Shown one piece after another: positions 30,089 to 56,496 of a DNA stretch of 63,287 nt. The DNA is from Lachnospiraceae bacterium. Lineage in GTDB: Bacteria > Bacillota > Clostridia > Lachnospirales > Lachnospiraceae. Position 1 is the stretch's first letter. Every line of letters begins with the position of its first letter. Below the pieces are notes generated by a model. It was not told the DNA's origin. It did no database searches and saw only the letters and a program-made list of their open reading frames with translations. The DNA is taken from positions 1 to 63,287 of the forward strand of contig JAGACK010000027.1 of the NCBI GenBank assembly GCA_017614155.1, in the 5' to 3' direction. Both the position numbers and the translations under genes were made by a program.

Positions 30089-30816
30089 TCAAAACATTTT
30101 CCCTGACTGACGTGGGAATGAAGAGAAAAATCAATCAGGATTATGTTTTTACCTCAGAAGAGGCAGTGGGAAACCTGCCTAATCTTTTTGTGGTTGCAGA
30201 CGGCATGGGCGGTCACAATGCAGGAGACTTTGCATCGAGGTTTGCGACCGATACGGTGGTAAACGAGATCTCAGCCTCGATGGAGAAGAATCCGATCAAG
30301 CTCATCAGGCATGCTTATGAAGCTGCAAACGAGGGGATCATCGAAGAGGCAAAAAAGAGAAGCGACAGAGTAGGCATGGGAACCACGCTCGTGGTGGCCT
30401 CGGTCATTGATGATTATCTTTATGTGGCAAATGTCGGTGACAGCAGACTCTATGTCATCGATGAAGACATATGCCAGATCACGAGGGATCATTCCCTTGT
30501 AGAAGAGATGGTCAGAGCAGGCGAGATAGACAGGAACGAGGCAAGGGTACATCCGCTCAAGAACAAGATAACGAGGGCAGTCGGCGGAGCGACGGAGGTA
30601 AAGGTTGACTTCTTTGACATGAAGCTCAAAGAGGGAGATATCATCCTGATGTGTACCGACGGCCTGACAAATATGGTGGAGGACGAGGAGATAAAGATGG
30701 TGGTCAAAAGCTCAGGCGACGTGGCTTCCATCGCGGAGAACCTCATAGCAAAGGCAAACAAAAACGGCGGGATCGACAACATAGGAGTGGTTGTCATCGA
30801 GCCTTTTTCAAAGTAA
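30085..30816 (+). CDS. prpC: PP2C-type serine/threonine phosphatase (PrpC/Stp)
   Basis: This 243-residue metal-dependent phosphatase has the PP2C motifs: NQDYVF, VADGMGGHNAGD, ANVGDSRLYV, CTDGLTNMV and GGIDNIGVVVI, with the metal-binding aspartates in place. It reverses phosphorylation by the partner kinase PrkC, whose gene starts 38 bases later. The pair links growth and cell-wall status to protein phosphorylation in Firmicutes. Confidence 0.95.
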   Translation: MIKTFSLTDVGMKRKINQDYVFTSEEAVGNLPNLFVVADGMGGHNAGDFASRFATDTVVNEISASMEKNPIKLIRHAYEAANEGIIEEAKKRSDRVGMGTTLVVASVIDDYLYVANVGDSRLYVIDEDICQITRDHSLVEEMVRAGEIDRNEARVHPLKNKITRAVGGATEVKVDFFDMKLKEGDIILMCTDGLTNMVEDEEIKMVVKSSGDVASIAENLIAKANKNGGIDNIGVVVIEPFSK

Positions 30817-30854
30817 AGACAAAGGCGCAGGCCGCCTTAAAAATGGTGTGATAT

Positions 30855-33317: not shown

Positions 33318-34201
33318 AGGAATACGACGGCAAGATAATAAAAGGCATAGCAGGGTTTTATTATGTGGATACGCCGGCCGGTGTTTTCCAGTGCAGGGCA
33401 AGAGGCCTTTTCAGGAACAAAGATCTGAAGCCTCTGGCAGGTGACAATGTAAGGATAAGCCTTACGGGAAATGAGGATGTCGAGGGCAATGTGATAGTCA
33501 TCCATGAAAGAAAGAACAGCCTGATCCGTCCGCCTGTCGCAAATATTGACCAGGCGCTCATCCTGTTTGCCATGCACAGTCCCGAGCCTGTATGGGGTCT
33601 TTTGGACAGATTTCTCGTCAATATGGCCTATCATGATATTCCATGTATCATCTGCATCAATAAAGACGATCTGAAAAAGGGAGATGAGGCAGACGGAATC
33701 GAAAAGATCTACCGCGCTTCCGGATGCTCACTTGTATTTACAAGCGCTCTCAAAAACTACGGAACGGAAGAACTGAAAGAAAAGCTCATCGGAAAGACTA
33801 CGACTGTTGCAGGTCCTTCGGGAGCGGGAAAGTCATCCATAATAAACGCCCTCCTCGGAAAAGATCATATGGAGACCGGAGTACTCAGCGCCAGGGTCGA
33901 ACGCGGAAAGCAGACCACGAGGCATACCGAGCTTATCCCGATAGACAGGGATACCTACATATTCGATTCACCGGGGTTTTCAAGCCTTGATCTTCCGGAT
34001 ATAAAGGAGGATGACCTGAGGGACTTTTTCCCGGAATTCAGGGAGTATAATACCGGCTGCAGATATAATATGTGCTCTCATACTCATGAGCCCGGCTGCC
34101 TGGTCAAACAGGCTGTTGAGGACGGCCTGATAGATGATCACAGATATTCTTCATACTTGTCGATATACAATCAGTTAAAGGAGTTAAAAAGGCACACATG
34201 A
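33314..34201 (+). CDS. rsgA: Ribosome small-subunit-dependent GTPase A
   Basis: RsgA checks late maturation of the 30S subunit. The 295-residue protein shows the circularly permuted GTPase order: OB domain (about 1-70), G4 NKDD at 116-119, then G1 GPSGAGKS at 167-174, then the DSPG motif. A zinc knuckle lies near the C-terminus (Cys in CRYNMCSHTHEPGC). The prkC-rsgA-rpe order is common in Firmicutes. Both ends overlap neighbours by 4 bases. Confidence 0.96.
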   Translation: MKEYDGKIIKGIAGFYYVDTPAGVFQCRARGLFRNKDLKPLAGDNVRISLTGNEDVEGNVIVIHERKNSLIRPPVANIDQALILFAMHSPEPVWGLLDRFLVNMAYHDIPCIICINKDDLKKGDEADGIEKIYRASGCSLVFTSALKNYGTEELKEKLIGKTTTVAGPSGAGKSSIINALLGKDHMETGVLSARVERGKQTTRHTELIPIDRDTYIFDSPGFSSLDLPDIKEDDLRDFFPEFREYNTGCRYNMCSHTHEPGCLVKQAVEDGLIDDHRYSSYLSIYNQLKELKRHT

Positions 34202-34866
34202 AATATGTTCTCGCTCCGTCGATACTTGCGGCGGATTTCAAGAATCTGGGAAGTGATATTGAAAAGGTCGATCATGCGGGGGCCGATGCGATCCACATAG
34301 ATGTGATGGACGGAAATTTTGTGCCGAGCATCTCGTTCGGAATGCCATTGATAAAGTCCATCAGATCGGCGACCGACAGGTTCTTTGATGTACATCTGAT
34401 GGTAACGGATCCCGAGCGCTATATCAGTGATTTTGTAGACTGCGGCGCGGACGGGATCACCATACATGCAGAGGCCTGCAGGGATGTGGAAAATGCGGTG
34501 AAGACCATCAGAAAGGCCGGCGTGAAGGTCGGCATAGCGCTGAATCCCGGGACCTCGCTTTCCTGTCTTGATTATCTCCTCGATGAGGTCGACATGGTGC
34601 TTTTGATGACGGTGAACCCCGGTTTCGGAGGTCAGAAATATATCGAAAGCTCAACGAGAAAGATCAGGGCTTTGAGGGACAAATTCATCGCCGAGGGCAG
34701 AGAGCTTGACATCGAGGTGGACGGCGGCGTGACAAAGGAGACGATCGAAAAGGTGCTGGATGCCGGAGCGAATGTCATCGTCATGGGCTCTGCGGTATTT
34801 AACGGAAATCCGGTAAAGAATACCGAGTATTTCAAGGAGATCCTCAGGCAGAGGAGCGAGGCATAA
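34198..34866 (+). CDS. rpe: Ribulose-phosphate 3-epimerase
   Basis: Rpe interconverts ribulose 5-phosphate and xylulose 5-phosphate in the pentose phosphate pathway. The 222-residue barrel has the conserved opening LAPSILAADF, the metal/catalytic motif IHIDVMDGNFVP, and VNPGFGGQKY and EVDGGVTKET near the C-terminus. It begins inside the rsgA stop and closes this operon. Confidence 0.96.
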   Translation: MKYVLAPSILAADFKNLGSDIEKVDHAGADAIHIDVMDGNFVPSISFGMPLIKSIRSATDRFFDVHLMVTDPERYISDFVDCGADGITIHAEACRDVENAVKTIRKAGVKVGIALNPGTSLSCLDYLLDEVDMVLLMTVNPGFGGQKYIESSTRKIRALRDKFIAEGRELDIEVDGGVTKETIEKVLDAGANVIVMGSAVFNGNPVKNTEYFKEILRQRSEA

Positions 34867-34872
34867 AAAAGG

Positions 34873-34901
34873 TTGAAAAGGTATGAAACCTGTGGTATCA
34901 T
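34873..34901 (+). promoter_or_regulatory. Promoter of secG-rnr
   Basis: TTGAAA, 17-base spacer, TATCAT in the 83-base gap after rpe. The predicted start is about 34908, giving a leader of about 40 bases. Confidence 0.72.
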
Positions 34902-34949
34902 ACTGAAGTTGTGTAAGGCATCATAAGTTTTTATTATGGAGAGAAGAAA

Positions 34950-35189
34950 ATGTCAGGATTAAGAGTAGTATTGACGATATTGTTCATGGTAGTATGTGTT
35001 GCGCTGACAGCGGTTGTGCTCATGCAGGAGGGAAAATCCCAGGGTCTTGGAGCCATAGCGGGAGCGGCAGACACATATTGGGGAAAGAATAAAGGACGTT
35101 CGCTTGAAGGAAAGCTGGTACTGGGAACGAGAGTGCTGTGTGCGGCATTCATTATACTGGCGATTCTTCTGAACCTTAGCAGGATATGA
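34950..35189 (+). CDS. secG: Preprotein translocase subunit SecG
   Basis: A 79-residue protein with two membrane helices (about 4-25 and 58-76) joined by the glycine-rich loop MQEGKSQGLGAIAG typical of SecG. It joins SecYE to aid protein export. GGAGAGAAG precedes the ATG. rnr overlaps the stop by 4 bases, a standard clostridial order. Confidence 0.93.
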   Translation: MSGLRVVLTILFMVVCVALTAVVLMQEGKSQGLGAIAGAADTYWGKNKGRSLEGKLVLGTRVLCAAFIILAILLNLSRI

Positions 35190-37168
35190 GAAAAAAACAT
35201 TCGGGCGCTTCCTTGAAAGAGGAAGCGCTTTTTGGTATCTATGAATCATCTTCGGGCGGTTTTGGCTTTGTGAAGATCGAGGGTTATGATGATGAAGTAT
35301 ATATCCCAAAGTCAAAAAAAGCCGATGCCATGCATGGTGACGCCGTAAGAGTCAGGATCTCAAAAAGAGCCATGGCTGACAGAAAGGCGGAAGGCGAAGT
35401 CGTTTCCATAGTTGAAAGGAATACATCTGTCGTGGTCGGCACATTCTGCCTTGCAAAGAAAACAGGCAGAAAAGCGCAGGAAGCGTATGGCTATGTCAGA
35501 CCGGACAACCCGCATGTCATGCAGAAGTTCATGGTCTCAAAGGAGAGAAGCAAGGGCGCAAAGGACGGTCAGAAGGTTGTACTTCGGATCACCGACTACG
35601 GAGACAGGAAAAATCACAGGAAGAGCGAGGGCATAATAAGCGAGATCCTGGGATATGCATCGGACCCCGGTGTTGATGTAAGGGTGATCGCAAGGGCCTA
35701 CGGGCTTTCTGATGTTTTTCCGGCCGAGGTCAGAAGAGAGGCAAAAAGATCTGCTGTGCCCGTTTCGGATGAGATGACAAAGGCGCGCCTGGACCTTCGG
35801 GACAGGATTATCTTTACGATAGACGGTGATGACTCCAAAGATTTTGACGACGCGGTAAGCCTTGAGAAAAAGGACGGCCGGTTTCTGCTGGGAGTTCATA
35901 TAGCTGATGTCACGGCCTATGTGAAGGAAAAATCATTTACGGACATAGAGGCGCTTTGCAGGGGAACTTCGGTATATCTGCCCGGACTTGTTGTGCCGAT
36001 GCTCCCGGAGAGCCTGTCAAACGGCATCTGTTCACTGAACCCGGATGAAGACAGGCTTACCTTAAGCTGTTTCATGACCATAGATGACAAAGGAAAGATC
36101 ACGGATTCGGTGATCGCCGAAAGCGTTATCCATTCCACATACAGACTGACATATTCAAAGGTCAATGCGATCATAGAGGACAGGGACAAATCCCTTTGCG
36201 ACGAATATGCGGATATAGCCGGCATACTGCTGGATATGCACCATCTTTCGGAAATACTGAAAAAGAAAAGGCACAGGAGGGGATCGATAGATTTTGATCT
36301 GCCCGAGACAAAGGTTCTGCTTGATGAAAACGGCAGGACGATTGGGATAGAGCCTTACGACAGGAATGCAGCGACCTCTCTGATCGAGGAGTTCATGATA
36401 GCCGCAAACGAAACCGTAGCCGAGACCTTCTGCGCGGAACAGATCCCGTTCATCTACAGGAGTCATGAAGATCCGGATCCCGAAAAGATAGAAAAGCTGA
36501 ACTCCTTTGTAAACGGTTTCGGATATCATCTGAAACTTCCCGGAGGAAAGATTCATCCAAAGGAAATACAGAAACTCCTTGAGAAGATCGGGGACAGTCC
36601 GGAGGAAACCCTGATAGAAAGACTGACGCTCAGGTCGCTTCAGCAGGCGCGATATACAGTTGAACCCCTGGGGCATTTCGGCCTGGCCAGTACTTATTAC
36701 TGCCATTTTACTTCGCCCATCAGGCGGTATCCCGACCTGCAGATCCACAGGATAATAAAGGATCATCTGCACGGCAAGCTCAATGCCCGGCGACTGGCTC
36801 ATTACAGGAAAATCCTGGACAGTGTCGCTTCAGAATCAAACAGGCTTGAAAGAAGAGCAGAGGAGACTGAACGGGAATGCGTGAAACTCAAAAAAACGGA
36901 GTACATGCAGCAGTTTATCGGACAGAGGTTTAAGGGTATCATTTCCTCGGTAACTGACTGGGGCATATATGTGGAACTTGACAATACCGTTGAAGGCATG
37001 ATACCGCTCCGTGATCTGACGGATGATTATTATATCTTTGATGAAGATGAATATCTGGTATACGGAAGGCTTGGCGGCAGGGTATTCCGCCTGGGGCAGA
37101 GTATTGACATTACAGTCGAAAGAGCCGATATACAATCCAGGGAGATAGATTTTCTCCCTGCAGATTAA
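35186..37168 (+). CDS. rnr: Ribonuclease R
   Basis: RNase R is a 3'-5' exonuclease that digests structured RNA and takes part in tmRNA-mediated decay. The 660-residue protein has cold-shock/OB domains (about 15-165), the RNB catalytic domain with DGDDSKDFDDAV (metal-binding aspartates) and TSPIRRYPDL, and a C-terminal S1 domain (about 575-655). It lacks the extended N-terminal helix-turn-helix of the E. coli enzyme, as usual in Firmicutes. tmRNA follows directly; smpB, often between them, is absent. Confidence 0.95.
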   Translation: MRKKHSGASLKEEALFGIYESSSGGFGFVKIEGYDDEVYIPKSKKADAMHGDAVRVRISKRAMADRKAEGEVVSIVERNTSVVVGTFCLAKKTGRKAQEAYGYVRPDNPHVMQKFMVSKERSKGAKDGQKVVLRITDYGDRKNHRKSEGIISEILGYASDPGVDVRVIARAYGLSDVFPAEVRREAKRSAVPVSDEMTKARLDLRDRIIFTIDGDDSKDFDDAVSLEKKDGRFLLGVHIADVTAYVKEKSFTDIEALCRGTSVYLPGLVVPMLPESLSNGICSLNPDEDRLTLSCFMTIDDKGKITDSVIAESVIHSTYRLTYSKVNAIIEDRDKSLCDEYADIAGILLDMHHLSEILKKKRHRRGSIDFDLPETKVLLDENGRTIGIEPYDRNAATSLIEEFMIAANETVAETFCAEQIPFIYRSHEDPDPEKIEKLNSFVNGFGYHLKLPGGKIHPKEIQKLLEKIGDSPEETLIERLTLRSLQQARYTVEPLGHFGLASTYYCHFTSPIRRYPDLQIHRIIKDHLHGKLNARRLAHYRKILDSVASESNRLERRAEETERECVKLKKTEYMQQFIGQRFKGIISSVTDWGIYVELDNTVEGMIPLRDLTDDYYIFDEDEYLVYGRLGGRVFRLGQSIDITVERADIQSREIDFLPAD

Positions 37169-37180
37169 ACCGGCAGTTTA

Positions 37181-37209
37181 TTGCTTTTAACATACCGCAA
37201 GTATATACT
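37181..37209 (+). promoter_or_regulatory. Promoter of ssrA
   Basis: TTGCTT, 17-base spacer, TATACT, with a predicted start about 37216. The 48-base leader contains a hairpin CAAAGCG/CGCTTTG (37232-37249) that would be removed when RNase P makes the mature 5' end. Confidence 0.72.
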
Positions 37210-37263
37210 GATAATAACAGCGTTGCCATCGCAAAGCGAAAACGCTTTGTGGGTTCCGCTTAA

Positions 37264-37605
37264 GGGGTAGTAATGGTTTCGACAGGGACCATGAAGCCGG
37301 AGAAGCTATCCGAACGGGATCGCGTTAAATCCCAAAAGACAAAATAAACGCAGACGATAATTACGCGTTAGCAGCTGCCTAAGCGGCTGCCGTCGGCCCG
37401 GATGTACCTGTCCGACCGGATACCGGCGTCAAACAGACAGGAAACGACATATGCAAAGCTTTGAGTATATGGGCGTAATATGAAGCTACCGAAACCGTAA
37501 GGGCGTGCGCCTCCGTACGGTGGAGGGAATTCCAATCGGCGTACTATGATAGTAGAAGGACGGTGGATCGGTTTTTGGACGCGGGTTCGACTCCCGCCTA
37601 CTCCA
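37264..37605 (+). ncRNA. ssrA: Transfer-messenger RNA (tmRNA)
   Basis: The 342-base RNA has the tRNA-like ends GGGGTAG and CTACTCC, GGTTTCGACAGGG near the 5' end, and a T-arm with GGTTCGACTCC at the 3' end. The discriminator is A and CCA is not encoded. The resume codon is GCA at 37350, and the internal frame to TAA at 37382 encodes ADDNYALAAA, so the tag is (A)ADDNYALAAA. It rescues stalled ribosomes and marks the products for proteolysis. An integrase remnant abuts the 3' end. Confidence 0.97.
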
Positions 37606-37613
37606 CTCGAAAA

Positions 37614-37644: not shown

Positions 37645-37682
37645 GTGTTGCATTTCGTGTTGCATTTTCGGTCATGTTGCAT
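37645..37682. repeat. Three TGTTGCAT repeats beside the integrase remnant
   Basis: TGTTGCAT occurs at 37646, 37658 and 37675; the first two are part of an 11-base repeat GTGTTGCATTT spaced 12 bp apart. They lie between the ssrA terminator and the integrase stop. They could be arm-type integrase sites, or the remains of a longer reading-frame end for the integrase. Confidence 0.4.
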
Positions 37683-38283
37683 GCCTCTCAATGTTTTTAA
37701 GATGGTTCTCCATCTTGTTGGCATAGTAATCCGACATGCTTGTGATATTGTTCTGGTAAACAGATTTCATGATCGGAGCGTTACCTGCACGGGACCAGCC
37801 GCCCATGTCTGCGAGATAAGTGTCCGGAATTTGAAGGACGGCAGCGGTACTTGCGAAATAGTGACGGAGATCGTGGAAACGGACACCTTTCTGCTTAGCA
37901 GGTAATGTTACCTTGAATGTCAGATCCGGTTGAAAATAGTTTATTGCCGATATTAAAAGACCGTAAGCATTGCGAACCGTTTTAGGTGACAGGCCGGAGC
38001 GAGACAATTCGGAGATAAACTTCTGAATGTCGGATGTTGTCAAAGCATTTACCCTCTTTCTGCCTATTGTCTGGTAATACTTTTTCATTTTGACATATCC
38101 ATTGATAGTGGACGGAGAGAGCACGGCCGTCTTGTCGTTTATGTATTCATTTACATCTATGTAGTAAACGATAATCTTAGAAGCCATCTTATAGAATACG
38201 GGAACCGGTAAAGTGCAGCTGTCTATATAGAGCGCAGACGGACAGTACAGGGCACAAATCACAATAGCCGTAAAATGAGTCAC
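37672..38283 (-). pseudogene. Tyrosine recombinase/integrase remnant with internal deletion
   Basis: The frame joins an integrase SAM-like core-binding domain (SPSTINGYVKMKKYY ... LSPKTVRNAYGLL ... VTLP) directly to the last part of a catalytic domain with HDLRHYFAS (His-x-x-Arg), GGWS, and a C-terminal Tyr in SVYQNN. Roughly 130 residues that should carry the first catalytic Arg and the Lys are missing, and the N-terminal arm-binding domain is not intact. A real start may be the ATG of MASKIIVYY (about 38187). It lies tail-first against ssrA, as active integrases do when an element inserts at the tmRNA 3' end. It is almost certainly inactive. Confidence 0.8.
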
Positions 38284-44340: not shown

Positions 44341-44369
44341 TTGTGAAAACAGAAGCACCCTCCTATAAT
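44341..44369 (+). promoter_or_regulatory. Promoter of the nuclease-helicase gene
   Basis: TTGTGA, 17-base spacer, consensus TATAAT. The predicted start, about 44376, leaves a leader of only about 17 bases. Confidence 0.8.
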
Positions 44370-44384
44370 TTGATCATAGGAGGG
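44358..44384 (+). promoter_or_regulatory. Palindrome spanning -10 and ribosome-binding site
   Basis: CCCTCCTAT (44358-44366) is exactly matched by ATAGGAGGG (44376-44384) around a 9-base centre. The left arm overlaps the -10 and the right arm is the Shine-Dalgarno. It may be the operator of a repressor. Confidence 0.6.
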
Positions 44385-44392
44385 CATTTAAT

Positions 44393-47300
44393 ATGGCTGA
44401 AAAAAACACAGACAAATTGAAACTGAGGCTTTCCGCTTCCCGGGTAGGAGGTCATTTTGAGCATGGATGTCAGCGTTTTACCGCATATTCTGTTTTGATG
44501 AATCCGGAAAAGGCAGGGTGGAGCGAACGGACTTATTCGCACAATTCCAGTCAGGATGCAGGACATATCTGGGAGTGGGATGCGCTGTGCCTTCTGGAGG
44601 ACAGAGGATTTCCCTGTTATGCTGAAAGGTGCAGACGGGATGACTCAAAGAATACAGAGCGTGTAACAGACTTTCGGCAGATGAGGAAGCTGTGTAATGT
44701 GTATGAAGAAAAGGCAGAGTACAGGTACACGGATCTGTCGCCTGAGCGCACTATAGAGATATTGAAGGATCCGGGGGCATATTTGCCGGAATATGAAAAT
44801 GAAGGCGGATATATATATCAGACAACACTGTTAAATCAGGATACTTTCACGGAAAGCGTTCTCCTGTCGGGGAGCAGATATCGTGAGCTCCTGAAGCAGG
44901 TTTATTCCGGCGGGCACCCGCTGCTTTCTGCCGAATGGTCATTTTGCAAGCCGGATCTGATCTATGTTACGAAGGATAAAGACGGGGAAAATGTGTTTTC
45001 CATCGTTGATATGAAACATGCAGGACACGCAAGGATGTCCCATAAAGTCCAGGTCGCCATCTATGCAGTCATGCTCAGCACTCTTCTTGAACAGGAAAAG
45101 ATACCCGGAAGAGTTGATATGGAAACCGGATATCTGTGGAATTTTAAAAGAGAAGCCCCGCTTCCCTTTGATATGAGTGTTGTTATTCCTTTTGTTAATA
45201 AGTACTTCAGTGAAGATATGCCTGCGGCGATAGCCGGGCTTGTACAGTGCAGGGAGGATGAAAAGAATGAAGCGGATGTATACAACCGTGCTTTTAAAGC
45301 GCTTCCGACGGTTCAGTGCGAATGGTGCGAGAATTACAAAAGCTGCATGAAATACCAGCAGGAGCATGAGCCGGTGACATTAATTCCCTACCTTTCATAT
45401 TACGCGCAGGTTTATGCGAAGAAAAATGCAATTCCGCTGGACATAGACGGCTTCGAAAAATACATTTCCGATGATGAAAACCTTACATCACTGAAGGAAG
45501 GCTGCCTTGGCTGGAAACGGGTGCTTTCCAGCGGGGCTCAGAATATTCAGGCTCTGCGGGAAATGAAGGAAAAGATGGAGAAACTCTTAAGCGGAGGCGG
45601 GGATAGGGAGATTTTTGCAGCTCCTGTCAGCAAAAATGTTTCTTCTCTTATCATGCCGGCAGGTGAGAAGCTCAGAATTATCCTGACAGCGCAGAGAGAT
45701 GAGGCTACAGACCGGGTGTATGCACTGGGTATCAGCGCCGGTACTAAAATCGAGGAAATCCTGCCTGAAAACAACGGAGATAATAACGGATCCGGGGATA
45801 AAGAAAAGAGTGGGGAGACTGAAAACTCCTCAGGTTATCATCGGTTCACCGGGATTTTTATAGCTGAGAAACCGGAAAAGCTTGATGAGAATATCCGTGA
45901 ATTTATGGAGTGTCTTTATGGGATACTTCAAAGGTGTGATGAATATAATCAGGGAAGCGATCTGGATTTTAATGATAAACTGACTGTTCAGGCATATGTG
46001 ATGGACAATTATGAGCAGATCAATCTTACAGACACTATAATGGATGAACTGTTAAACGGCGATGGTGTCAGGGATGCAGACTATCGTGAAAAGCTGCTCG
46101 CGATATTATTCTGGCTGATGGGGGAGCGTATGGTCACTGATGTCGAAGAGCAGGCAGACAGTCTGAAGGGAGATTTCCCACTTGTTGTGATAAGCAGTGT
46201 GGTCAGGTCGCTGTTCTGCATTCCTGCTTATATCTCATATGATCTGGAAACCGTATGTGACGCGATGCTGGGAAACGAAACGGAGCGAAAGGAGTTTTCC
46301 AAAGGCGTTAAATATGACCGTATCCTTTCAAATACGATGAAGAGTGATGCGATCAACCTTATATGGGCCAATAAGGCAAAAGATGAAGAGAAAGAGCTTC
46401 GTTCCTTGCGAGGGTATCTGAGCATCCGTCTGAATCGTGAATTCAGGCTTGTCAGCGCCATCCGGAAAAAATCCGATGGTTCGTTGAAACGGTGGCCCGA
46501 GGCTTTTGCATTTTCGGGGATGAATGAAAGCCTCAGTATCCGGGCTGCAAAGCTCATAACACAGATGCAGTACGAAGAGATCCTGCAGTATCATGACATA
46601 CGGCAGATTCGTATGAACGATCCCGATGAAATGGCGGGAGAGGGCCGGATCATGAAGGCGAGGCTTATTTCCCAGAGTCAGATAAATAAGAAGACATATA
46701 ATAAATACCCCGCGCCCAGGGAGCTGCCGGGCTTTATCTGTAAATGCGAAATACTGAATAAGGATGAGTATTTTCAAAGGGACTTCTTCCGTGGGATTCT
46801 CCTGAAAGCCGGCGATAACACGGCATGGGAAGAGTTAAGCGCTCTAAATCAGTTCCGGGAGAAGAATAATATAATACCGAATGTGACCATGGACAAAGAG
46901 TACAATCCTGTCCGAAATCTGTATGTTGTTGATTCCATAAAAACGGAAACAGACAGCAGTACGGGGTCGCGTACGGTCAGCTTCGAAAGATTTAAGGGCT
47001 TTGAAGAAGTTGAGAAGGGTATAACAGCCGATGCTCTGAATGGAACGGAGTTCTATCTGGTTAACAGCTACAAGGATCTGAACACTGAAAAAGTCAATAC
47101 TGCCCTCTGTAATGAAGGCAGGCATTATGATGATACGGATCCGGGGGATAAACACAGCCTTTTATATCCTGAAACCATATACCGTAAAGAAGCGATTAAT
47201 TCTCCAAATAACGGGGAAGAAGTACCGGAAAGGAAACTAAGTGAGGAAGATCTTAAGGAGTGCCTTTCATTTAAGCCCGAGGACAGAGGAAGGGATTTTA

Positions 47301-48865
47301 CTGATTCGCAGAGTAAGGCTTTTTCACAGATGTTTTTCAAGAATATCACGCTTCTGCTTGGCCCTCCGGGAACGGGAAAGACTGATTTTGTGGCAAGAGC
47401 AGTGATAACGCTGTGCAGATATTATTTTTCGAAGGGGGTTATTATCTCAGTTCTGCTCTCTGCGAATTCACATTCGGCTATCAATAATATCCTTTCCGCC
47501 CTGGTACAGAAAGAAGAAGGGAAAGAAGGAGAGCCTGTTATCTGTAAGCTTGAAAGCTGGGGCGATGATGGGGCAGATCCGGTTAATGGAGTGAGACTTG
47601 TCAAAGATTACCCGCCGGATGATGAGATGTATGTCGGAAATCTCTACAGGTATGAAGAAGGCCGGCCCTTCGTTCTCGGGGCGACCTGTTGGAAGATCGG
47701 GAACTCGGTAAAAAGGTTTAATGATTCCAATAGCAATATGTTCGAGGGATTTGACCTGGTAGTTATAGATGAGGCCTCCCAGATGCGCTCAATGGATGCG
47801 CTGATCGTCCTTCAGCAGGCTATCGCAGCCCCGATGGAGCGTTTCCTGATCGTAGGCGACGAGGATCAGCTCTCGCCGGTGCTTCATGGAAAATATGATG
47901 CATCAGCCCAGGAGGTGGATTTCTACGGTTCGGTATTCCGCCTGTATTATGATACGGCAAAGAAATACAGCCTTGATTATCTGGTTCCGCTGGAAGAGCA
48001 GTTCAGGATGAATGAGATTCTGTCAAGGTATCCTGCACAGGCGATCTATGACAGGGATATCCGTGAGGGTGACGGCAGAAAGGGCTATCATGCCTTTGAC
48101 TTTGACAAAGGAGGAAGACTGGGTATAGCTGCACAGCAGCTGACTTTAAAGGATTTTGCATTTCCCGGGTTCTCGGGGGATGCCGCAGATGAAGAGCAGC
48201 TTATGGGACTGCTTGCCGATCCGGAATATCCTCTGATCGTGTGCCGTATCCATGATGGAGATGCAAAAGAAAAACGTGATGAGGAGATAAGGCTTGTTAC
48301 TTTATTGATCGGATTTTTAAGAGAACATATGTGTGTGCCGGGGACAGAAGAACTATACGGATCGGATGAAGAGTTCTGGGGCAGCAGCAACGGTGAAGGA
48401 GGAGTGGGCATTATATCACCGCACCATGAGCAGATAAACCGCTTAAAGGATGCTCTTGCATCTGAGAACGGCATGGATCGTGACAGGATATTCATAGGAA
48501 CGGTGGACACGCTGCAGGGACGGCAGCGGGAGGCCGTGATAGTAAGCTACGGTATGACCGATCCGGAAAAAGCGGAGCTTGAGATGGAATTTATATACAG
48601 CCGTAACCGTCTGAATGTTGCCATGACCAGAGGAAAGAAAAAAACGATATGCTTTCTTTCGGACACGCTTCTTGACCGCAACGCGGAGACACTGAGTGTG
48701 GATGATGATATCATTCTGAAGGGTATAGATTACATGACGGGTCTGCTGGATTTCATGAATGCAGAGGAAGAGGATACCCGGACGGACAACCGGTTGGATC
48801 TTATGACAGGAAAGGTCAGGATCGATGTATTCAGGAAACGTATGAAAACTGATACAATCAGATGA
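44393..48865 (+). CDS. Dna2-like fusion: Fe-S PD-(D/E)XK nuclease plus SF1B helicase
   Basis: This 1490-residue protein joins two enzymes. The N-terminal nuclease (about 1-330) has Asp188, Asp206-x-Lys208 (VDMKHA) and QVAIY (220-224), the RecB/Cas4 core. It also has a likely 4Fe-4S set: Cys26 plus Cys309-x2-Cys312-x5-Cys318, the spacing found in eukaryotic Dna2. A long middle part (about 330-960) contains a Gly/Asn/Ser linker near 461-482. The C-terminal helicase (about 960-1470) has Walker A GPPGTGKT (about 990), VVIDEAS, GDEDQLSP, VDTLQGRQREAV and LNVAMTRGKK, as in UPF1/Dna2 helicases. It should unwind and cut DNA. Size, context and regulated promoter suggest defence against foreign DNA, an inference. 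Confidence 0.88.
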   Translation: MAEKNTDKLKLRLSASRVGGHFEHGCQRFTAYSVLMNPEKAGWSERTYSHNSSQDAGHIWEWDALCLLEDRGFPCYAERCRRDDSKNTERVTDFRQMRKLCNVYEEKAEYRYTDLSPERTIEILKDPGAYLPEYENEGGYIYQTTLLNQDTFTESVLLSGSRYRELLKQVYSGGHPLLSAEWSFCKPDLIYVTKDKDGENVFSIVDMKHAGHARMSHKVQVAIYAVMLSTLLEQEKIPGRVDMETGYLWNFKREAPLPFDMSVVIPFVNKYFSEDMPAAIAGLVQCREDEKNEADVYNRAFKALPTVQCEWCENYKSCMKYQQEHEPVTLIPYLSYYAQVYAKKNAIPLDIDGFEKYISDDENLTSLKEGCLGWKRVLSSGAQNIQALREMKEKMEKLLSGGGDREIFAAPVSKNVSSLIMPAGEKLRIILTAQRDEATDRVYALGISAGTKIEEILPENNGDNNGSGDKEKSGETENSSGYHRFTGIFIAEKPEKLDENIREFMECLYGILQRCDEYNQGSDLDFNDKLTVQAYVMDNYEQINLTDTIMDELLNGDGVRDADYREKLLAILFWLMGERMVTDVEEQADSLKGDFPLVVISSVVRSLFCIPAYISYDLETVCDAMLGNETERKEFSKGVKYDRILSNTMKSDAINLIWANKAKDEEKELRSLRGYLSIRLNREFRLVSAIRKKSDGSLKRWPEAFAFSGMNESLSIRAAKLITQMQYEEILQYHDIRQIRMNDPDEMAGEGRIMKARLISQSQINKKTYNKYPAPRELPGFICKCEILNKDEYFQRDFFRGILLKAGDNTAWEELSALNQFREKNNIIPNVTMDKEYNPVRNLYVVDSIKTETDSSTGSRTVSFERFKGFEEVEKGITADALNGTEFYLVNSYKDLNTEKVNTALCNEGRHYDDTDPGDKHSLLYPETIYRKEAINSPNNGEEVPERKLSEEDLKECLSFKPEDRGRDFTDSQSKAFSQMFFKNITLLLGPPGTGKTDFVARAVITLCRYYFSKGVIISVLLSANSHSAINNILSALVQKEEGKEGEPVICKLESWGDDGADPVNGVRLVKDYPPDDEMYVGNLYRYEEGRPFVLGATCWKIGNSVKRFNDSNSNMFEGFDLVVIDEASQMRSMDALIVLQQAIAAPMERFLIVGDEDQLSPVLHGKYDASAQEVDFYGSVFRLYYDTAKKYSLDYLVPLEEQFRMNEILSRYPAQAIYDRDIREGDGRKGYHAFDFDKGGRLGIAAQQLTLKDFAFPGFSGDAADEEQLMGLLADPEYPLIVCRIHDGDAKEKRDEEIRLVTLLIGFLREHMCVPGTEELYGSDEEFWGSSNGEGGVGIISPHHEQINRLKDALASENGMDRDRIFIGTVDTLQGRQREAVIVSYGMTDPEKAELEMEFIYSRNRLNVAMTRGKKKTICFLSDTLLDRNAETLSVDDDIILKGIDYMTGLLDFMNAEEEDTRTDNRLDLMTGKVRIDVFRKRMKTDTIR

Positions 48866-48892
48866 CAGATTATTGACTCGGGAGGAAAACGG

Positions 48893-49492
48893 ATGAATTA
48901 CCTTAAACGAATGAGTATGCTTTACCGGTCTGTTTCGGAGAAATATAAGAACGGTTCTCTCGGCGAGAAGGAGAGAGACGAAAAGTTCGATGAGATAAAG
49001 GGTCTGCTGGACACGGTTTTGGGCATACGTTCAGATATCATAGAAGATAGTATTGATAATCTGCTTAAAGGGGAGAACACTCAAAAGAAGCCCGAAGACC
49101 GTCAGAACAAAATTCGTGAAAGCATTGTCAGACTTAATGAGATATGTGTTGATAACAAAGTTGATCCGGTCTTTCCTGAAGTAGGATCCGATACCGGACC
49201 TCGTGAGACTGCTGAAGCGATTGAGAGATATTTAAAGCAGCTTCACAAAAGCGACCGGCTGTTGCGTGATGCCCTGGATGAGTTCCTGAAGACAGGTGAT
49301 TATGACAAGTATACAATTATATCTGATTACATCAACGATCATATCGACCAGATGATTGACAGCAAAGAAGAGCGCCAAAGCCCGGATAAAGAAGGGCGTT
49401 ATGAAGATGAAGCAGACTCCGGGGTCAGGTCCGTAAACCGGATCATCCAGAAGTATATTGATGAAATGATACTGGAGAATATGCATAACTGA
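48893..49492 (+). CDS. Small helical protein, putative partner of the nuclease-helicase
   Basis: I do not recognise this 199-residue protein. It is acidic, mostly helical and soluble, with no catalytic motif. The N-terminus (MNYLKRMSMLYRSVSEKYKN) and C-terminus (VNRIIQKYIDEMILENMHN) look like amphipathic helices suited to contacts with another protein. GGGAGG lies 7 bases before the ATG. It starts 27 bases after the nuclease-helicase stop with no terminator between, so the two are probably co-expressed. It could be an adaptor, a sensor or an inhibitor. Confidence 0.75.
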   Translation: MNYLKRMSMLYRSVSEKYKNGSLGEKERDEKFDEIKGLLDTVLGIRSDIIEDSIDNLLKGENTQKKPEDRQNKIRESIVRLNEICVDNKVDPVFPEVGSDTGPRETAEAIERYLKQLHKSDRLLRDALDEFLKTGDYDKYTIISDYINDHIDQMIDSKEERQSPDKEGRYEDEADSGVRSVNRIIQKYIDEMILENMHN

Positions 49493-50547: not shown

Positions 50548-52701
50548 ATGAACAGTATGATCATGAAAAGAACATTTTGGGATCGGTTCCGAAAAAAACA
50601 GAATATAGCGGCCCTGTGCGTCTGTATCCTGGGCGTGGGACTGAATCTTTTATTAGGTCAGATCGTAGCAGCTCTCGGACTGCCATTGTATCTGGACACC
50701 GTGGGCACTGTGCTGGCAGCGGTTTTGGGAGGGTATCTTCCCGGCGTTTTGGTTGGATTTGCCACGAATATCTTAAAAAGCATTTCGGATCCCTCGTCGC
50801 TCTATTATGTTTCACTCAATGTACTGATAGCTTTTTTTGCGACATTTCTTTACAGACACGGATGGCTGAAAAAAGTATACGGGATAATAGGAACAACCAT
50901 AGTGTTTGTATTGACAGGCGGTGGACTCGGCGCGCTTATCCCGTGGTTTATGGAGCAGCTCAGCTTTGACAGCGAATCCTTGAGCGGGATCATATATGGG
51001 ACAGGATATTTTGGTGAGTTTTCGTCACATCTTCTGTCGAGCATCATCATGGATATCCCGGATAAAGCTGTAACTGTACTGCTTGTACTTGCCATCCTGC
51101 ATTTTATCCCTGAAAAGATGAAGCAGCATCTGGGATTTGTTTTATGGGCGCAGGAACCGCTTTCCGATCAGGATATTGATGAGACTAACAGATCAAAAAC
51201 CCGAACAGCTTCACTTAAGGGGAAAGTAATCCTGGTACAGGCTGTTTCTCTTGTTATCATTTCAGTGGTCGGGACCGTTTTAAGCGTCAGGCTGTATCGT
51301 GAGACTGTCATCGACGAACACTCCCGCATAGCTATGGGGACTGCCAAAACTGCCGCTGCGCTCATTGACGGCGACAGGGTTGATGATTTCCTTGAAAATT
51401 CTTTTGCTGCTGAAGGATATGTTGAAACTTTTGAGGCGTTGGATCGTATCCTGCACAACTCAACTGATATTGAGTATTTATATGTTTACAGGATCCTTGA
51501 AGACGGATGTCATGTTGTTTACGATATCGAAACAGACGATACACAGGCAGAGGGAACGGGAACGGTCATAGAATTTGATGAAGGTTTCAGTGATTATATT
51601 CCCGACCTCTTAGCCGGCAAAGAGATCGACCCGATCATTACGGATGATAAGTGGGGCTATCTGCTTACTGCGTATAGTCCTGTTTATGATTCGGCGGGCA
51701 GGTGTGTCTGCTATGTCGGGGTAGATGTGGACCTGGAGCTGCTCAACAGAAAGATATACAGCTATCTGACTGAGATGATCTCGGTTTATCTGGGATTTGT
51801 CATAGTGCTTAGCATACTGGTGGACTGGCTGGCTGAGTATCTGATGAAGCTGCCCTTAAAAACCATCACAAAAAGAGTTTATGGTTTCGTCAGTTCTGAA
51901 AATACTCAGCAGGAACTCGATGAAAATGTCAGGAGTTTCAGAAAGATAGATATCCGGACAGGAGATGAGGTCGAGCTGCTGTACAATGCAATCTGCAGTA
52001 TGTCTTCCAATCAGTCTGAGCATATACGGAGTATCCGGAGGCTGTCTGATTCCACCGCAAAGATGCAGGACGGACTGATAATTACCATGGCGGACATGGT
52101 GGAAAACCGTGATTCGGATACCGGCGCACATGTTCAAAAGACTTCAGCATATGTAAAGATCATAGTGGAAGGCCTGAAGAAAAAAGGTTATTATGCAGAA
52201 AAACTCACGCCCCAGTTTATGTCTGATGTCGTAAGGTCAGCGCCTCTTCATGATGTGGGCAAGATCAATATCCCGGATAATGTTCTCAACAAACCCGGAA
52301 AACTGACGGATGAAGAATATGAGATCATGAAAACGCATACGACTGCAGGCAAGCGTATCATGGAGCATGCCATCAGTTCGGTGGAAGGTGACAATTATCT
52401 GAAAGAAGCCAGAAATATGGCGGCATACCATCATGAGAGATGGGACGGAAAAGGCTATCCCGAGGGACTTCATGGAGAGATGATACCGCTCTCGGCCCGT
52501 ATCATGGCTGTAGCTGATGTTTTTGATGCGCTTTCCTCACCGCGTGTATATAAGCCGGCTTTCCCGCTTGAAAAGGCATTGTCGATCATGGAAGAGGGAA
52601 AAGGCACTCAGTTTGATCCGAAATGTATCGAAGTTTTTTTTGATTCCCTTGATGAAGTAAAAACCATCCTGGGACAATACAACGGTAAAGGAAATGTTTG
52701 A
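50548..52701 (+). CDS. Membrane sensor cyclic-di-GMP phosphodiesterase (HD-GYP)
   Basis: The 717-residue protein has an N-terminal membrane domain of about six helices (about 20-190) that resembles an ECF-transporter S-component (LGLPLYLDTVGTVLAAVLGGYLPGV). A second membrane pair (about 227-248 and 405-425) flanks an external Cache-like domain. A C-terminal HD-GYP domain has His568-Asp569 in LHDVGKI and GYP at 636-638 in HHERWDGKGYPEG. It should hydrolyse cyclic di-GMP. The start is not fixed: ATG codons at 50548, 50557 and 50563 all lack a clear site. It overlaps the next gene by 8 bases. Confidence 0.9.
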   Translation: MNSMIMKRTFWDRFRKKQNIAALCVCILGVGLNLLLGQIVAALGLPLYLDTVGTVLAAVLGGYLPGVLVGFATNILKSISDPSSLYYVSLNVLIAFFATFLYRHGWLKKVYGIIGTTIVFVLTGGGLGALIPWFMEQLSFDSESLSGIIYGTGYFGEFSSHLLSSIIMDIPDKAVTVLLVLAILHFIPEKMKQHLGFVLWAQEPLSDQDIDETNRSKTRTASLKGKVILVQAVSLVIISVVGTVLSVRLYRETVIDEHSRIAMGTAKTAAALIDGDRVDDFLENSFAAEGYVETFEALDRILHNSTDIEYLYVYRILEDGCHVVYDIETDDTQAEGTGTVIEFDEGFSDYIPDLLAGKEIDPIITDDKWGYLLTAYSPVYDSAGRCVCYVGVDVDLELLNRKIYSYLTEMISVYLGFVIVLSILVDWLAEYLMKLPLKTITKRVYGFVSSENTQQELDENVRSFRKIDIRTGDEVELLYNAICSMSSNQSEHIRSIRRLSDSTAKMQDGLIITMADMVENRDSDTGAHVQKTSAYVKIIVEGLKKKGYYAEKLTPQFMSDVVRSAPLHDVGKINIPDNVLNKPGKLTDEEYEIMKTHTTAGKRIMEHAISSVEGDNYLKEARNMAAYHHERWDGKGYPEGLHGEMIPLSARIMAVADVFDALSSPRVYKPAFPLEKALSIMEEGKGTQFDPKCIEVFFDSLDEVKTILGQYNGKGNV

Positions 52702-55063
52702 TCTTATCAGGGCCTATCAACTGGATATAATGCTGTTCTTATGCGGGACCTGCGGAATAATGTCCCTTCTTCTTGTTCTGACCAGATTTCTCCCCTCCGG
52801 CAGAAAAAAGATAATGATCCAGGTTGAAGTGGTGGCTTTTTTTCTGCTCTTTTTTGACCGTATCGCATATATGCATGATGCAGATCCGAGCCGGGCAGGA
52901 TTTTTCCTGGTCAGAGTCAGCAATCTCTGTGTGTTCTTTCTCACGCCATATGTTGTTCTTGGTTTTGATATATTCCTGATGGACTGGCTGTTAAATGAAG
53001 GCAGGATGAAAACTGTTCCGAAGCGTTTGAGGGCAGTGGCCATCATGGCTGTATGCGGCATGATAATGGCTGTTATATCAGGCTTTACCGGTCTGTATTA
53101 CTATTTTGATGAGACCAACAGGTATCACAGAGGGCAGCTCTTTCTGGTTTCTTATATCATCCCGGTGCTCTGTCCGCTGATCGTGGCTTCGGTAGTGATA
53201 CAGTACAGAAAGATATTCAGCAGGCGAATATATGCAGCGCTGCTTGTGTATATCTTTCTGCCGCTGGCAGGCGGGATCATTCAGTTGTTTGTATATGGCA
53301 TTCCGATCGTAAATATGTCGATCGTTATTGTGTCTGTGCTGGTCTATATCCTTGTTTATCTGGATATAAACGACAGGGTTGTCCATGCGTATGAGATCGA
53401 GATAAGGAATATGCAGGGAGAACATGATAAGTTGCAGCGTGTATTCGATCAGACTGCCACAGCATTTGTTTCAGCGGTGGAAAAAAAGGATGAGCATGTC
53501 AGAGGCTGTTCTGCCAGGGTGGCCGAATATGCTGAAAAGATAGCCGGATCAAGCGGTATGGATGAACAGGAATGCAGACAGGTGTATTATGCTGCGCTGC
53601 TTCACAATGTCGGACTTATCGGCGTTCCGGAGAGTCTGGTAACAGGAGATAAGGATCCGGCTGAACAGGAAAAAGAGGTTATCAGGATGATGCCCGAGAT
53701 CGGAAGCGAGATCCTGTCAAGCATTCAGGAGATGCCATATCTCGAAACGGGTGCGCGTTACTGTCATGAAAATTATAACGGAACGGGGGGGCCCGAAGGG
53801 CTCAAAGGCGGGGAGATACCTGAAATAGCCAGGATCATATCCGTAGCCGATGCATATGTGTATATGACAACCGATACAAGATTCCATGAAGCCGTACCGG
53901 ATTTTATCGCAAGAGAGGCTCTGGTAAAAGGCAGCGGCGAACAATTTGATCCCAGATTTGCCGATCTGATGATAAAGATCATTGACGGGGAAAATCAAAA
54001 GAGCGGCGGACAGAAAACTTTGGAGATCGAGACCGGATTTTCGTGCAATGACTACAGGGAACATATCTCACGGGGGATTCCCGTTGACGGCATCGTGACA
54101 AAAGTATCTTTTGATTGTGCTCCTTTCAACGCAGGCCCGTCTGATTTTTCGGACCCGGCATTGATACTCTTTGATTCCTATGACGGGAGAGTCCATGAAA
54201 ATGAAAAGTCGATAGAAAACTACGGCTATCTGGAGTATGGAGAGATATGGTTCAACGAACATGATGTAAATACTTCAGCCAGAAAGATCCAAAATTCGAT
54301 AAAGGTTAAGGATGCGGATCCTTCTGATGATAACCGTCCGAAAAAGTATGAGATGACCATGGGTAGGTTTGAGGATCATATAAAGCTGAAGATGGTATCG
54401 CCAGGCTTTGAAAAGGAAGTGATAATCGCTCTTCCGGACAGAAGCAGGGCCAGCTATATCGCTCTGACGGGAGAGCATTGCCGGATCACGGAAATAACCG
54501 TGGAAAAAACAAAAAAAGAGGTCTCACAGAATGATATCCAAAGGATAGCTGCAGGGACAAGCTATATTGAACGGATGGAATCCGACCTGAAGAATGTCCA
54601 GATCGACAGATCCAGATCCGTCTCAACGACAGGGGTCAGGATCAAAAACAGACTGAAGATCATATTTCATGCGATGAGTCTGCCCAGTGCAAATCTTGTG
54701 TGGCACTGTCCCTTTGTCATTCTGTTTTCTTCGGATGATGGATGTGTGAACGGGAGCGGTTACAAAGAATATGCCTGCATCAAGCTTTGTGGTGAAAATG
54801 ATGGAGATACTGAATTTGCCACAAACAGTATTTCCGTGAAAAAGACCGATGAGTTTTCGGGATGGGACAGATGGAAGGAAATGAATAAAAAAGGCCTGGA
54901 ATGTGAAGTCAGCCTGCGCAGGAAGGATGACCGGATCATTCTGAAAACGAAAAATCTTGGGATTGAAATAGAAAGCATCACTGCCATCAGGGATGTTAGA
55001 GGAGATGTATATGCAGCCCTCAGCGGTGATCAGGTGGCGCTGACCGATATCAGGGTCATATGA
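52694..55063 (+). CDS. Seven-TM protein with degenerate HD-GYP domain and C-terminal beta domain
   Basis: The 789 residues comprise about seven membrane helices (about 8-235), a HD-GYP-like domain (about 250-430) and an unrecognised C-terminal region (about 440-789) that looks beta-rich, perhaps two similar sandwich domains. The HD-GYP motifs are broken: LLHNVGLIGVP has His304-Asn305 in place of His-Asp, and the GYP loop reads Gly365-Gly366-Pro367. Metal binding and phosphodiesterase activity are therefore unlikely. It may bind cyclic di-GMP or modulate the flanking enzymes. It overlaps both neighbours. Confidence 0.88.
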   Translation: MFDLIRAYQLDIMLFLCGTCGIMSLLLVLTRFLPSGRKKIMIQVEVVAFFLLFFDRIAYMHDADPSRAGFFLVRVSNLCVFFLTPYVVLGFDIFLMDWLLNEGRMKTVPKRLRAVAIMAVCGMIMAVISGFTGLYYYFDETNRYHRGQLFLVSYIIPVLCPLIVASVVIQYRKIFSRRIYAALLVYIFLPLAGGIIQLFVYGIPIVNMSIVIVSVLVYILVYLDINDRVVHAYEIEIRNMQGEHDKLQRVFDQTATAFVSAVEKKDEHVRGCSARVAEYAEKIAGSSGMDEQECRQVYYAALLHNVGLIGVPESLVTGDKDPAEQEKEVIRMMPEIGSEILSSIQEMPYLETGARYCHENYNGTGGPEGLKGGEIPEIARIISVADAYVYMTTDTRFHEAVPDFIAREALVKGSGEQFDPRFADLMIKIIDGENQKSGGQKTLEIETGFSCNDYREHISRGIPVDGIVTKVSFDCAPFNAGPSDFSDPALILFDSYDGRVHENEKSIENYGYLEYGEIWFNEHDVNTSARKIQNSIKVKDADPSDDNRPKKYEMTMGRFEDHIKLKMVSPGFEKEVIIALPDRSRASYIALTGEHCRITEITVEKTKKEVSQNDIQRIAAGTSYIERMESDLKNVQIDRSRSVSTTGVRIKNRLKIIFHAMSLPSANLVWHCPFVILFSSDDGCVNGSGYKEYACIKLCGENDGDTEFATNSISVKKTDEFSGWDRWKEMNKKGLECEVSLRRKDDRIILKTKNLGIEIESITAIRDVRGDVYAALSGDQVALTDIRVI

Positions 55064-56496
55064 ACTTAAAAAAGGGGGAAACATTTTTGCAGGAAGAAAA
55101 GAAATATCACTCCATCTCCAGAAGAATGCCGATCATGATCTCTGTGGGTTTTCTGATAATGCTTGCTATCGTAGTCACGGTCACTTTTTTTCGTATTGAA
55201 AAGCGCATGATAAACGAGTACCGCAGGATGGCTGACGGCGTGACCAATCTGATGATCGAGGCGCTGGATCCGGAAAAAATGGATTATTATATCGAGGAAA
55301 ACTACAGTTCCCCGGAATATATGTCCATCATGAAGTATTTCTATCAGCTCAAGGATAATTATCCGGATGTCTACTACATGTATGTGTACCGTTTTTATAA
55401 AGACGGCGATGTTCCGTACGGAACGATCATCATCGATCTAGAGGATGAATATACCGATACGCCGAATCAGGTCAGTATTGAATGGGTCGGGGGAACCTAT
55501 GATGTTCTGGAACCCTTTGCCTCCCGGATAGATGAAATGCTTGGCAGCCGGGAACCTGTTTATGATACTGCATATTCGAAAGAAGACGGATATCTGCTTT
55601 CTTTTGCCAAGCCGATCTATGACAGCAAGGGCAATTATGTGGCAAGTGCCTGTGTGGATTTTTCCATGGCGGAGCTGCACGGTCAGAACATCCGGTTTAT
55701 CATCATACTGTGCTTTATCCTTATACTGGCAACGGGCGTGATGCTGTTCCTTGCATTCTATATACTGAAAACAAGAGTGACAAAGCCGCTTCTGTTGATC
55801 GCAAATACCGTCTCGGGATTTAAATATGATTCCGAGGAGGATTGCAGCAGCAACCTGCAGCAGCTTGAGGATCTTGATATACGCTCCAATAATGAGATCG
55901 GTGTTTTGTATGAAGCGCTGCTGACCGCCGAAAAGGAAAGTGTTTTTTATATGGGCAGTTATATGAGGGCAGAGGACACGATCCAGATCAAGGACGAGAG
56001 AATCAGCAAACTCGGCGATCTGGCATTGCGTGATTCCATGACTCATGTAGGGAACAAGACAGCGTTTACGATGCAAATCTCCGAGCTTCATGATGATGAT
56101 GTATACGGCATCGTACTCATGGATGCCAATAATCTCAAGATGATAAACGATACCTATGGTCATGAAGCAGGTGATGAATACATCAAGGGCTGTTGCGAAC
56201 TGCTGTGCAGGATCTATGCTCATTCCCCTGTTTTCAGGATCGGCGGAGACGAATTCGCAGTCATACTCAAAGGCAGGGATTATGAAGACCGTGACCGGCT
56301 TCAGAAGGAGATCAGGGCGGAATTTGCTGCGATCTGGGACGACAGGAAGGATGACCCCATCCACAGGTATTCAGGCTCCGTCGGAATGGCGGACTCGACA
56401 ACCTGTATGACCGCAAGGGAAACGATAAAGACCGCGGATGACAATATGTACGAAGACAAAAAAGCGTTCAAGGAGAAGAACGGAAGCTACAGGTGA
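55060..56496 (+). CDS. Membrane-bound diguanylate cyclase (GGDEF)
   Basis: The 478-residue protein has a first membrane helix (about 25-45), an external Cache-like domain (about 46-205), a second helix (about 210-235), a HAMP-like/coiled segment and a GGDEF domain. GGDEF is intact at 395-399 in FRIGGDEFAVI, and DANNLKMINDTYGHEAGDEY carries the metal/nucleotide residues. It should make cyclic di-GMP. No RxxD inhibitory site is seen just before GGDEF. The external domain shares a MYVYRF-type segment with the LYVYRI of the phosphodiesterase two genes upstream. It begins in the preceding stop (ATGA). Confidence 0.93.
   Translation: MNLKKGETFLQEEKKYHSISRRMPIMISVGFLIMLAIVVTVTFFRIEKRMINEYRRMADGVTNLMIEALDPEKMDYYIEENYSSPEYMSIMKYFYQLKDNYPDVYYMYVYRFYKDGDVPYGTIIIDLEDEYTDTPNQVSIEWVGGTYDVLEPFASRIDEMLGSREPVYDTAYSKEDGYLLSFAKPIYDSKGNYVASACVDFSMAELHGQNIRFIIILCFILILATGVMLFLAFYILKTRVTKPLLLIANTVSGFKYDSEEDCSSNLQQLEDLDIRSNNEIGVLYEALLTAEKESVFYMGSYMRAEDTIQIKDERISKLGDLALRDSMTHVGNKTAFTMQISELHDDDVYGIVLMDANNLKMINDTYGHEAGDEYIKGCCELLCRIYAHSPVFRIGGDEFAVILKGRDYEDRDRLQKEIRAEFAAIWDDRKDDPIHRYSGSVGMADSTTCMTARETIKTADDNMYEDKKAFKEKNGSYR

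Follow-up and report, generated by a model that had tools for sequence, protein, structure and literature searches.

The closest described kind of enzyme to the one analyzed here is the bacterial DNA2-like (Bad) kind. The Bad protein, from Geobacillus stearothermophilus, is described as a monomer of 1245 aa for which four cluster cysteines are predicted; mutation of D150 and of K815 served to kill its nuclease and its ATPase, respectively (PMC7430649). The same study describes a 5′-3′ motor with endonuclease activity and a preference for 5′ overhangs; according to its authors, no physiological role is known for Bad, and its central domain resembles nothing recognizable beyond uncharacterized Bad proteins (PMC7430649). 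A type III methylase lies beside Bad in Geobacilli, and the authors proposed a new restriction enzyme (PMC7430649). A second group of relevance is that of the dpd clusters, one of which is reported to restrict unmodified plasmid DNA and whose nuclease DpdK belongs to the phospholipase-D family (PMC5567051).

The window analyzed here is a stretch of 63,287 nucleotides that forms one whole contig of a 2.64-Mb Lachnospiraceae genome in 59 contigs (below, G and L followed by a number denote genomes and compared loci). Lachnospiraceae are a bacterial family common in animal guts. A preliminary description, made from the sequence alone, had proposed a candidate defense module in this window, composed of a Dna2-like nuclease-helicase and a small helical partner. 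Our analysis bears out the enzyme and leaves its defense role plausible, but lends no support to a module with the small partner. The best reading of the long gene, judging from its sequence, is a stand-alone enzyme of the Bad kind, which is rarely seen and little understood.

Architecture of the helicase-nuclease

Both genes are open where the preliminary description had placed them (Table 1), and we found no sign of a broken gene, with no stop and no motif residue lost in the long protein. In the latter, a single chain is predicted to hold a RecB/Cas4-type nuclease with four cysteines, followed by a central domain and a helicase of the UPF1/DNA2 type. The protein is 33% identical to each of three full-length relatives, with nuclease and helicase motifs kept in the alignment. 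The nuclease residues proposed earlier (Asp188, Asp206-x-Lys208 and four cysteines) are confirmed by this alignment, since C26, D188, D206-x-K208, Q220, V221, Y224, C309, C312 and C318 are invariant in the four full-length family members; of the proposed QVAIY motif, Q220, V221 and Y224 hold, whereas A and I vary. The cysteine set, D-x-K and Walker A were present in all six proteins checked. Profile matches to the nuclease were weak: Pfam PDDEXK_1 (PD-(D/E)XK) fell below its cut-off (E = 0.0061; residues 187-318) and a Cas4 match reached 0.0074 (library search with PADLOC, Pfam and NCBIfam), while residues 1-330 aligned with the TM0106 nuclease (hhalign probability 70.9; E = 3.7e-5). The UPF1/Dna2-type SF1B helicase was recovered by Pfam AAA_11, AAA_12, AAA_19 and AAA_30, all above cut-off, with AAA_11 and AAA_12 falling in the last third of the protein; its best PDB sequence matches were SEN1, DNA2 and NAM7 (NAM7/UPF1).

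Table 1. Coordinates of the features of the locus in the window.
Feature	Position	Strand	Basis
Promoter-like site TTGTGA-17-TATAAT	44341..44369	+	10 of 12 positions match
Bad-like helicase-nuclease, 1490 aa	44393..48865	+	Open frame, domain matches, conserved motifs
Fe-S RecB/Cas4-type nuclease, residues 1-330	44393..45382	+	Conserved residues; weak PDDEXK_1; hhalign to TM0106 nuclease
Nuclease residues C26, D188, D206, K208, Q220, Y224, C309, C312, C318	44393..45382	+	
Central domain, about residues 325-690	45365..46462	+	Common to unnamed protein before DpdJ (hhalign)
UPF1/DNA2-type SF1B helicase, residues 967-1430	47291..48682	+	Pfam, PDB sequence matches; aligns with DpdJ first part
199-aa gene	48893..49492	+	Probably co-transcribed with long gene

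The preliminary description had named Mokosh and Nhi as comparators and missed Bad, the closest described kind (PMC7430649). The window protein resembles Bad as described there in its N-terminal RecB-family nuclease with four cluster cysteines and in its C-terminal SF1B (DNA2/UPF1-type) helicase; going by the published description, a central domain that is possibly homologous lies between the two in each. It differs from Bad in its greater length (1490 versus 1245 aa), and no type III methylase was present in the flanking stretches read, unlike in Geobacilli. The relative at L102 comes close to Bad in length (1274 aa); its D-x-K aspartate is D150 and its Walker A lysine is K819, against D150 and K815 of Bad, a close agreement by published residue numbers. 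The L102 nuclease matches Cas4 (E = 5.1e-7). Eukaryotic DNA2 shares the order of nuclease then SF1B helicase and a PDB sequence match in the helicase, but lacks the central domain according to the Bad authors (PMC7430649). The C-x2-C-x5-C spacing, earlier presented as that of eukaryotic Dna2, is not special to it because five TM0106 and four Dpd-linked proteins carry the same spacing. Mokosh (MkoA, MkoC) also has a UPF1-type helicase, but its profile matches cover the helicase part only. PADLOC, Pfam and NCBIfam gave no named system with these two genes, the long protein yielding helicase and weak nuclease matches. For PLuB, our literature search returned no paper combining all its terms.

Links to dpd clusters and TM0106 proteins

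A tblastn search of plasmids with L102 matched two neighboring genes in Azospirillum, Caulobacter, Methylobacterium and Skermanella. At all four loci, an unnamed protein of 762-774 aa directly precedes a protein of about 2100 aa that is DpdJ or DpdJ-like: it is DpdJ in Caulobacter and Methylobacterium (both scanned; E = 0), aligns with the family helicase in Skermanella and, in Azospirillum, is a long open frame matched by tblastn in a record without gene table. Annotated dpdA, dpdB and 7-deazaguanine genes lie nearby in three of the four records. The unnamed protein is rare (4 of 72,556 plasmid records at E ≤ 1e-5) and each of its four copies carries C-x2-C-x5-C and D-x-K. Residues 187-677 of the window protein matched the Methylobacterium copy (21.5%; E = 9e-17 in a six-sequence database). 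The central domains alone, without the nuclease, also matched between the family and the Dpd-linked proteins (hhalign probability 97.5; E = 8.4e-12; 293 columns), against a best E of 0.12 for 60 column-shuffled control alignments. Judged by these alignments, the nuclease and central domain are the same module as the unnamed protein before DpdJ. Of the middle region of about 600 residues that had been called unassignable, residues 325-690 or so are now tied to the Dpd-linked protein, so that the assignment is partial.

PADLOC names neither of the two copies of the unnamed protein that were scanned. No DpdK was shown among 10 of the 14 genes of the Caulobacter dpd cluster that were scanned, the other four being annotated as queC, a QueD-like enzyme, queE and a second DpdB. 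With no DpdK shown among those 10 genes, the unnamed protein becomes a candidate for the nuclease in this dpd variant. The window protein resembles the pair found in dpd clusters in that its nuclease and central domain match the unnamed protein and its helicase matches the first part of DpdJ. It differs in that nuclease, central domain and helicase are fused in one chain, and in that no dpdA, dpdB or dpdC was found in its flanks (Pfam; ten proteins; 36-52.7 kb). In addition, the window protein matches only positions 47-460 of the 2112 in the DpdJ profile, and DpdJ runs about 1600 residues further. We found no mention of a link between the Bad-type module and DpdJ in a literature search covering subscription journals thinly and including the accessible parts of PMC12458937, PMC11888242 and PMC12839542.

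In proteins of the TM0106 family (TIGR03491), a nuclease with four cysteines, a middle region and an SF1 helicase also follow one another in this order, but a search of the window protein up to E = 1 gave no match to TIGR03491. L102 reached 47.4 bits (cut-off 97.45), and Dpd-linked proteins matched below the cut-off (E = 8e-10 and 7e-8), over a stretch that runs from the cysteine cluster on into the region behind it. The direct profile comparison of the family middle with the TM0106 middle was not significant (E = 0.38 and 0.71). Aligned with the corresponding part of five TM0106 proteins, the Dpd-linked central part scored 33.0 (probability 27; E = 6.7e-4); the highest score among 60 column-shuffled controls was 20.8 (E = 0.05), and the reversed control scored 16.1. 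A link of the central domain to TM0106 through the Dpd-linked protein is only suggestive. The middle of TM0106 is an RNase H-like domain; we suggest that the central domain may be an RNase H-like fold whose acidic residues were lost. The helicases form separate groups in a tree of 18 domains: the five TM0106 and three DpdJ rows are each one fully supported group, eight family rows group at 79/92 support (80% of bootstrap trees), and L111 and L112 are long and unplaced. TM0106-family loci on alphaproteobacterial plasmids (L081-L083, L109 and L110) lie near methylase, restriction or Abi-type genes and follow a WYL-domain regulator in four cases out of five.

Distribution and genomic context

Among 48 genomes of the genus, the window's included, six matched the nuclease-and-middle alignment of the family at E ≤ 0.001, five of them strongly (G000, G007, G012, G015 and G027) and G042 weakly (7.9e-4). 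Matches were found in 2 of 397 genomes of the family sample (E ≤ 1e-20), in one of the 392 of the order sample, which is the window genome itself, and in 6 of 398 of the phylum sample (E ≤ 1e-15); the last six comprise two along the profile (the window's own and G906), one contig-end fragment (G981) and three helicase only. A pattern scan of genome contigs gave 27 matches, six of which are relatives, all from Lachnospiraceae and four from rumen, reticulum or cecum samples. The occurrence of the family is patchy, and the gene is not at a fixed core locus in nearly all relatives, with five of 48 genus genomes carrying it and neighbors that differ. We also considered a phage or viral origin and rejected it: no relative was found in three scans of viral contigs, and the one match in the phage collection covers the helicase only. 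A fused relative of 1326 aa lies on a Chloroflexota plasmid (L112 3649-7629), followed by an unnamed 255-aa gene; its cysteine set is at 249, D-x-K at 152 and Walker K at 892.

The comparison of neighbors covered ten family loci (the window, L021, L022, L023, L024, L028/L029, L031, L033, L034 and L102); L103, a fragment of 4.4 kb, and L112, on a plasmid, were set aside. Neighbors flagged as defense or toxin-antitoxin genes were present at five of the ten, a raw count over unevenly scanned neighbors. L028 has Vsr, an NgoFVII-type restriction enzyme, a C5 methylase and a GajB-like helicase; L031 has PDC-M26A twice and PDC-M26B; L102 has ZacC, SIR2-like and HSDR_N; L024 has DarT with a NADAR antitoxin and HEPN; and L021 has a HEC-07-like gene (E = 2e-15). 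An AAA protein of L022 matches PDC-M37B and other AAA defense proteins in its AAA part only, and no defense neighbor appeared in what was read of L023 and L034 (reading and clustering). Azaca was rejected for L102: its ZacC-like gene is a strong match (E = 5e-192), but no ZacA or ZacB occurred among the seven L102 proteins scanned.

Genes similar to ClpP and VirD4 were present at four of the ten loci (L021, L022, L024 and L033), and a ClpB/FtsH-like AAA gene also at four (L022, L028/L029, L031 and L033). None of the three was found in the stretch of the window compared; the window genome carries this VirD4-like subfamily twice, both times on contigs other than the window and once in a stretch that also contains a ClpB/FtsH-like gene. 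The link to VirD4-like genes is loose because members of the subfamily were also present in genomes lacking the helicase-nuclease (e.g., G003, G010, G014, G024, G029 and G041). Counted by clusters, 9 of 14 copies of the soluble VirD4-like ATPase are paired with a ClpP-like protease, often with small helical proteins (L021, L022, L024, L033, L075, L077, L078, L079 and L044), and our literature search found nothing relevant on ClpP with VirD4 in anti-phage defense. Related proteins of 1037 and 1230 aa stand beside ClpP and VirD4-like genes (L022 6120-9233 and L079 12562-16254); neither has an NCBIfam match, and the L022 protein, whose GGADFDSDS resembles by eye the metal-binding loop of two-barrel RNA polymerases, also has no Pfam or PADLOC match.

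The integrase scar at ssrA that had been reported for the window is present: a tmRNA gene lies at 37264-37606, and its 3′ end adjoins an antisense 203-aa integrase-like remnant (37672-38283) with PF02899 above cut-off and PF13495 and PF14659 just below theirs (N-terminal domain matches). No known defense or modification gene was found by Pfam among ten proteins of the flanks (36-52.7 kb). A row of phosphatase, kinase, GTPase and epimerase genes was read by eye at 30085-37606, about 10-14 kb upstream of the helicase-nuclease, and the same row directly adjoins the helicase-nuclease of G012 (L023 8491-17790; also by eye); the two genomes possibly share an insertion region near ssrA. Downstream, three mutually similar genes follow a YihY-like gene in a row (50548-56496), and the foremost of them contains an HD domain of the HD-GYP type. 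The YihY-like gene of G007 stands beside an enolase-like end on a 4-kb contig (by eye), and the helicase-nuclease of that genome is on another contig; no enolase is present in the window, and the gene order in the two fits insertion or rearrangement without proving either.

A strong promoter of its own had been claimed for the gene pair. The site itself was seen (Table 1), but alone it is weak evidence because shuffled sequences average 9.3 promoter-like sites where the scanned region has 13. A 12-base inverted repeat (44358-44384; 92% complementary; 3 bases between arms) spans the -10 hexamer and the ribosome-site-like stretch of the helicase-nuclease gene. It possibly serves as an operator, or folds in read-through transcripts into a hairpin that masks the ribosome site; four other loci (L022, L028, L031 and L033) were checked and showed no such repeat ahead of the gene.

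Possible roles of the enzyme

The explanation that we favor, and hold to be fairly probable, is that a stand-alone enzyme of the Bad kind acts as a restriction-like effector against invading DNA. We prefer it because of the dpd link and the defense-flagged neighbors of relatives (5 of 10 loci); conserved motifs, patchy occurrence and the proximity of Bad to a methylase also count for it. Against it stand the absence of defense or modification genes among the ten flanking proteins of the window (Pfam) and from what was read of L023 and L034, as well as the non-significant direct link between the central domain and TM0106. Most likely, the enzyme would load onto invading DNA wherever it offers a free 5′ end or a single-stranded flap, as in the intermediates through which phages and plasmids enter, replicate or are transferred. 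It would unwind this DNA and cut the single strand as unwinding proceeds; by analogy with Bad, loading would take place at 5′ overhangs, and the motor would track single strands in the 5′-3′ direction, with cutting. Free 5′ ends, as present on DNA that is being replicated or transferred, might suffice to tell foreign from own DNA, with no mark needed, and the central domain may sense DNA or regulate the nuclease. A defense role of this sort is plausible.

Several other explanations were weighed against the restriction-like effector. The DNA2-like architecture, the best PDB matches and the location of some family loci among ordinary chromosomal genes would suit an accessory of DNA repair or replication, processing flaps or ends as eukaryotic DNA2 does and taking no part in defense; this appears unlikely in view of its absence from 43 of 48 genus genomes at strong E-values, the flagged neighbors at half of the loci and a module common to dpd clusters. 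Less likely still is that the enzyme is one subunit of a larger system scattered over the genome, with a soluble VirD4-like DNA pump, ClpP and a ClpB/FtsH-like AAA protein. The recurrence of these genes at family loci (four of ten for ClpP with VirD4-like, four of ten for ClpB/FtsH-like) and the VirD4-like genes elsewhere in the window genome, one near a ClpB/FtsH-like gene, speak for such a system, but the window stretch compared has none of them, the VirD4-like subfamily also occurs where the helicase-nuclease does not, and two family loci are cut by contig ends.

The module of two genes, in which the 199-aa protein would be a regulator or inhibitor, is very improbable. The two genes are on the same strand, separated by 27 bases with a ribosome-site-like GGGAGG (by eye), and the terminator scan lists no site in this gap, as had been claimed; they are probably co-transcribed and may be expressed together in this genome. 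However, a search of 60 other genomes, including four with the long gene, gave no match to the 199-aa protein, its best E by tblastn in 18 related loci is 0.73, and PADLOC, Pfam and NCBIfam gave nothing convincing for it. Moreover, the closest homologue of the long protein (G007; 78% identity over residues 653-1486; contig starting inside the gene) is directly followed by a different gene, which encodes a coiled-coil protein of 671 aa. The lack of relatives in 60 genomes and the different follower in G007 indicate that the pair is not a conserved module and that the small gene is not conserved beside the long one.

A bolder proposal, which taken as a whole we regard as rather doubtful, would make the Bad-type nuclease and central domain a portable restriction effector. 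It would be the missing nuclease of a dpd cluster lacking DpdK, working on DpdJ with an added DNA2-type motor, and in Lachnospiraceae it would have been fused to the motor. Several genomes would add the VirD4-like pump, ClpP and the ClpB/FtsH-like protein, making up an undescribed defense that destroys DNA and protein, and the central domain would be a DNA sensor built on an RNase H-like fold, as in TM0106, that has become inactive.

What is new here is that the Bad-type nuclease and central domain also occur separately, as an unnamed protein directly before DpdJ. The relatives of the window enzyme include what is apparently an unnamed cutting subunit of a known DNA-marking defense system (dpd). 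This module ties enzymes of the Bad kind to a restriction system, and their role becomes testable.
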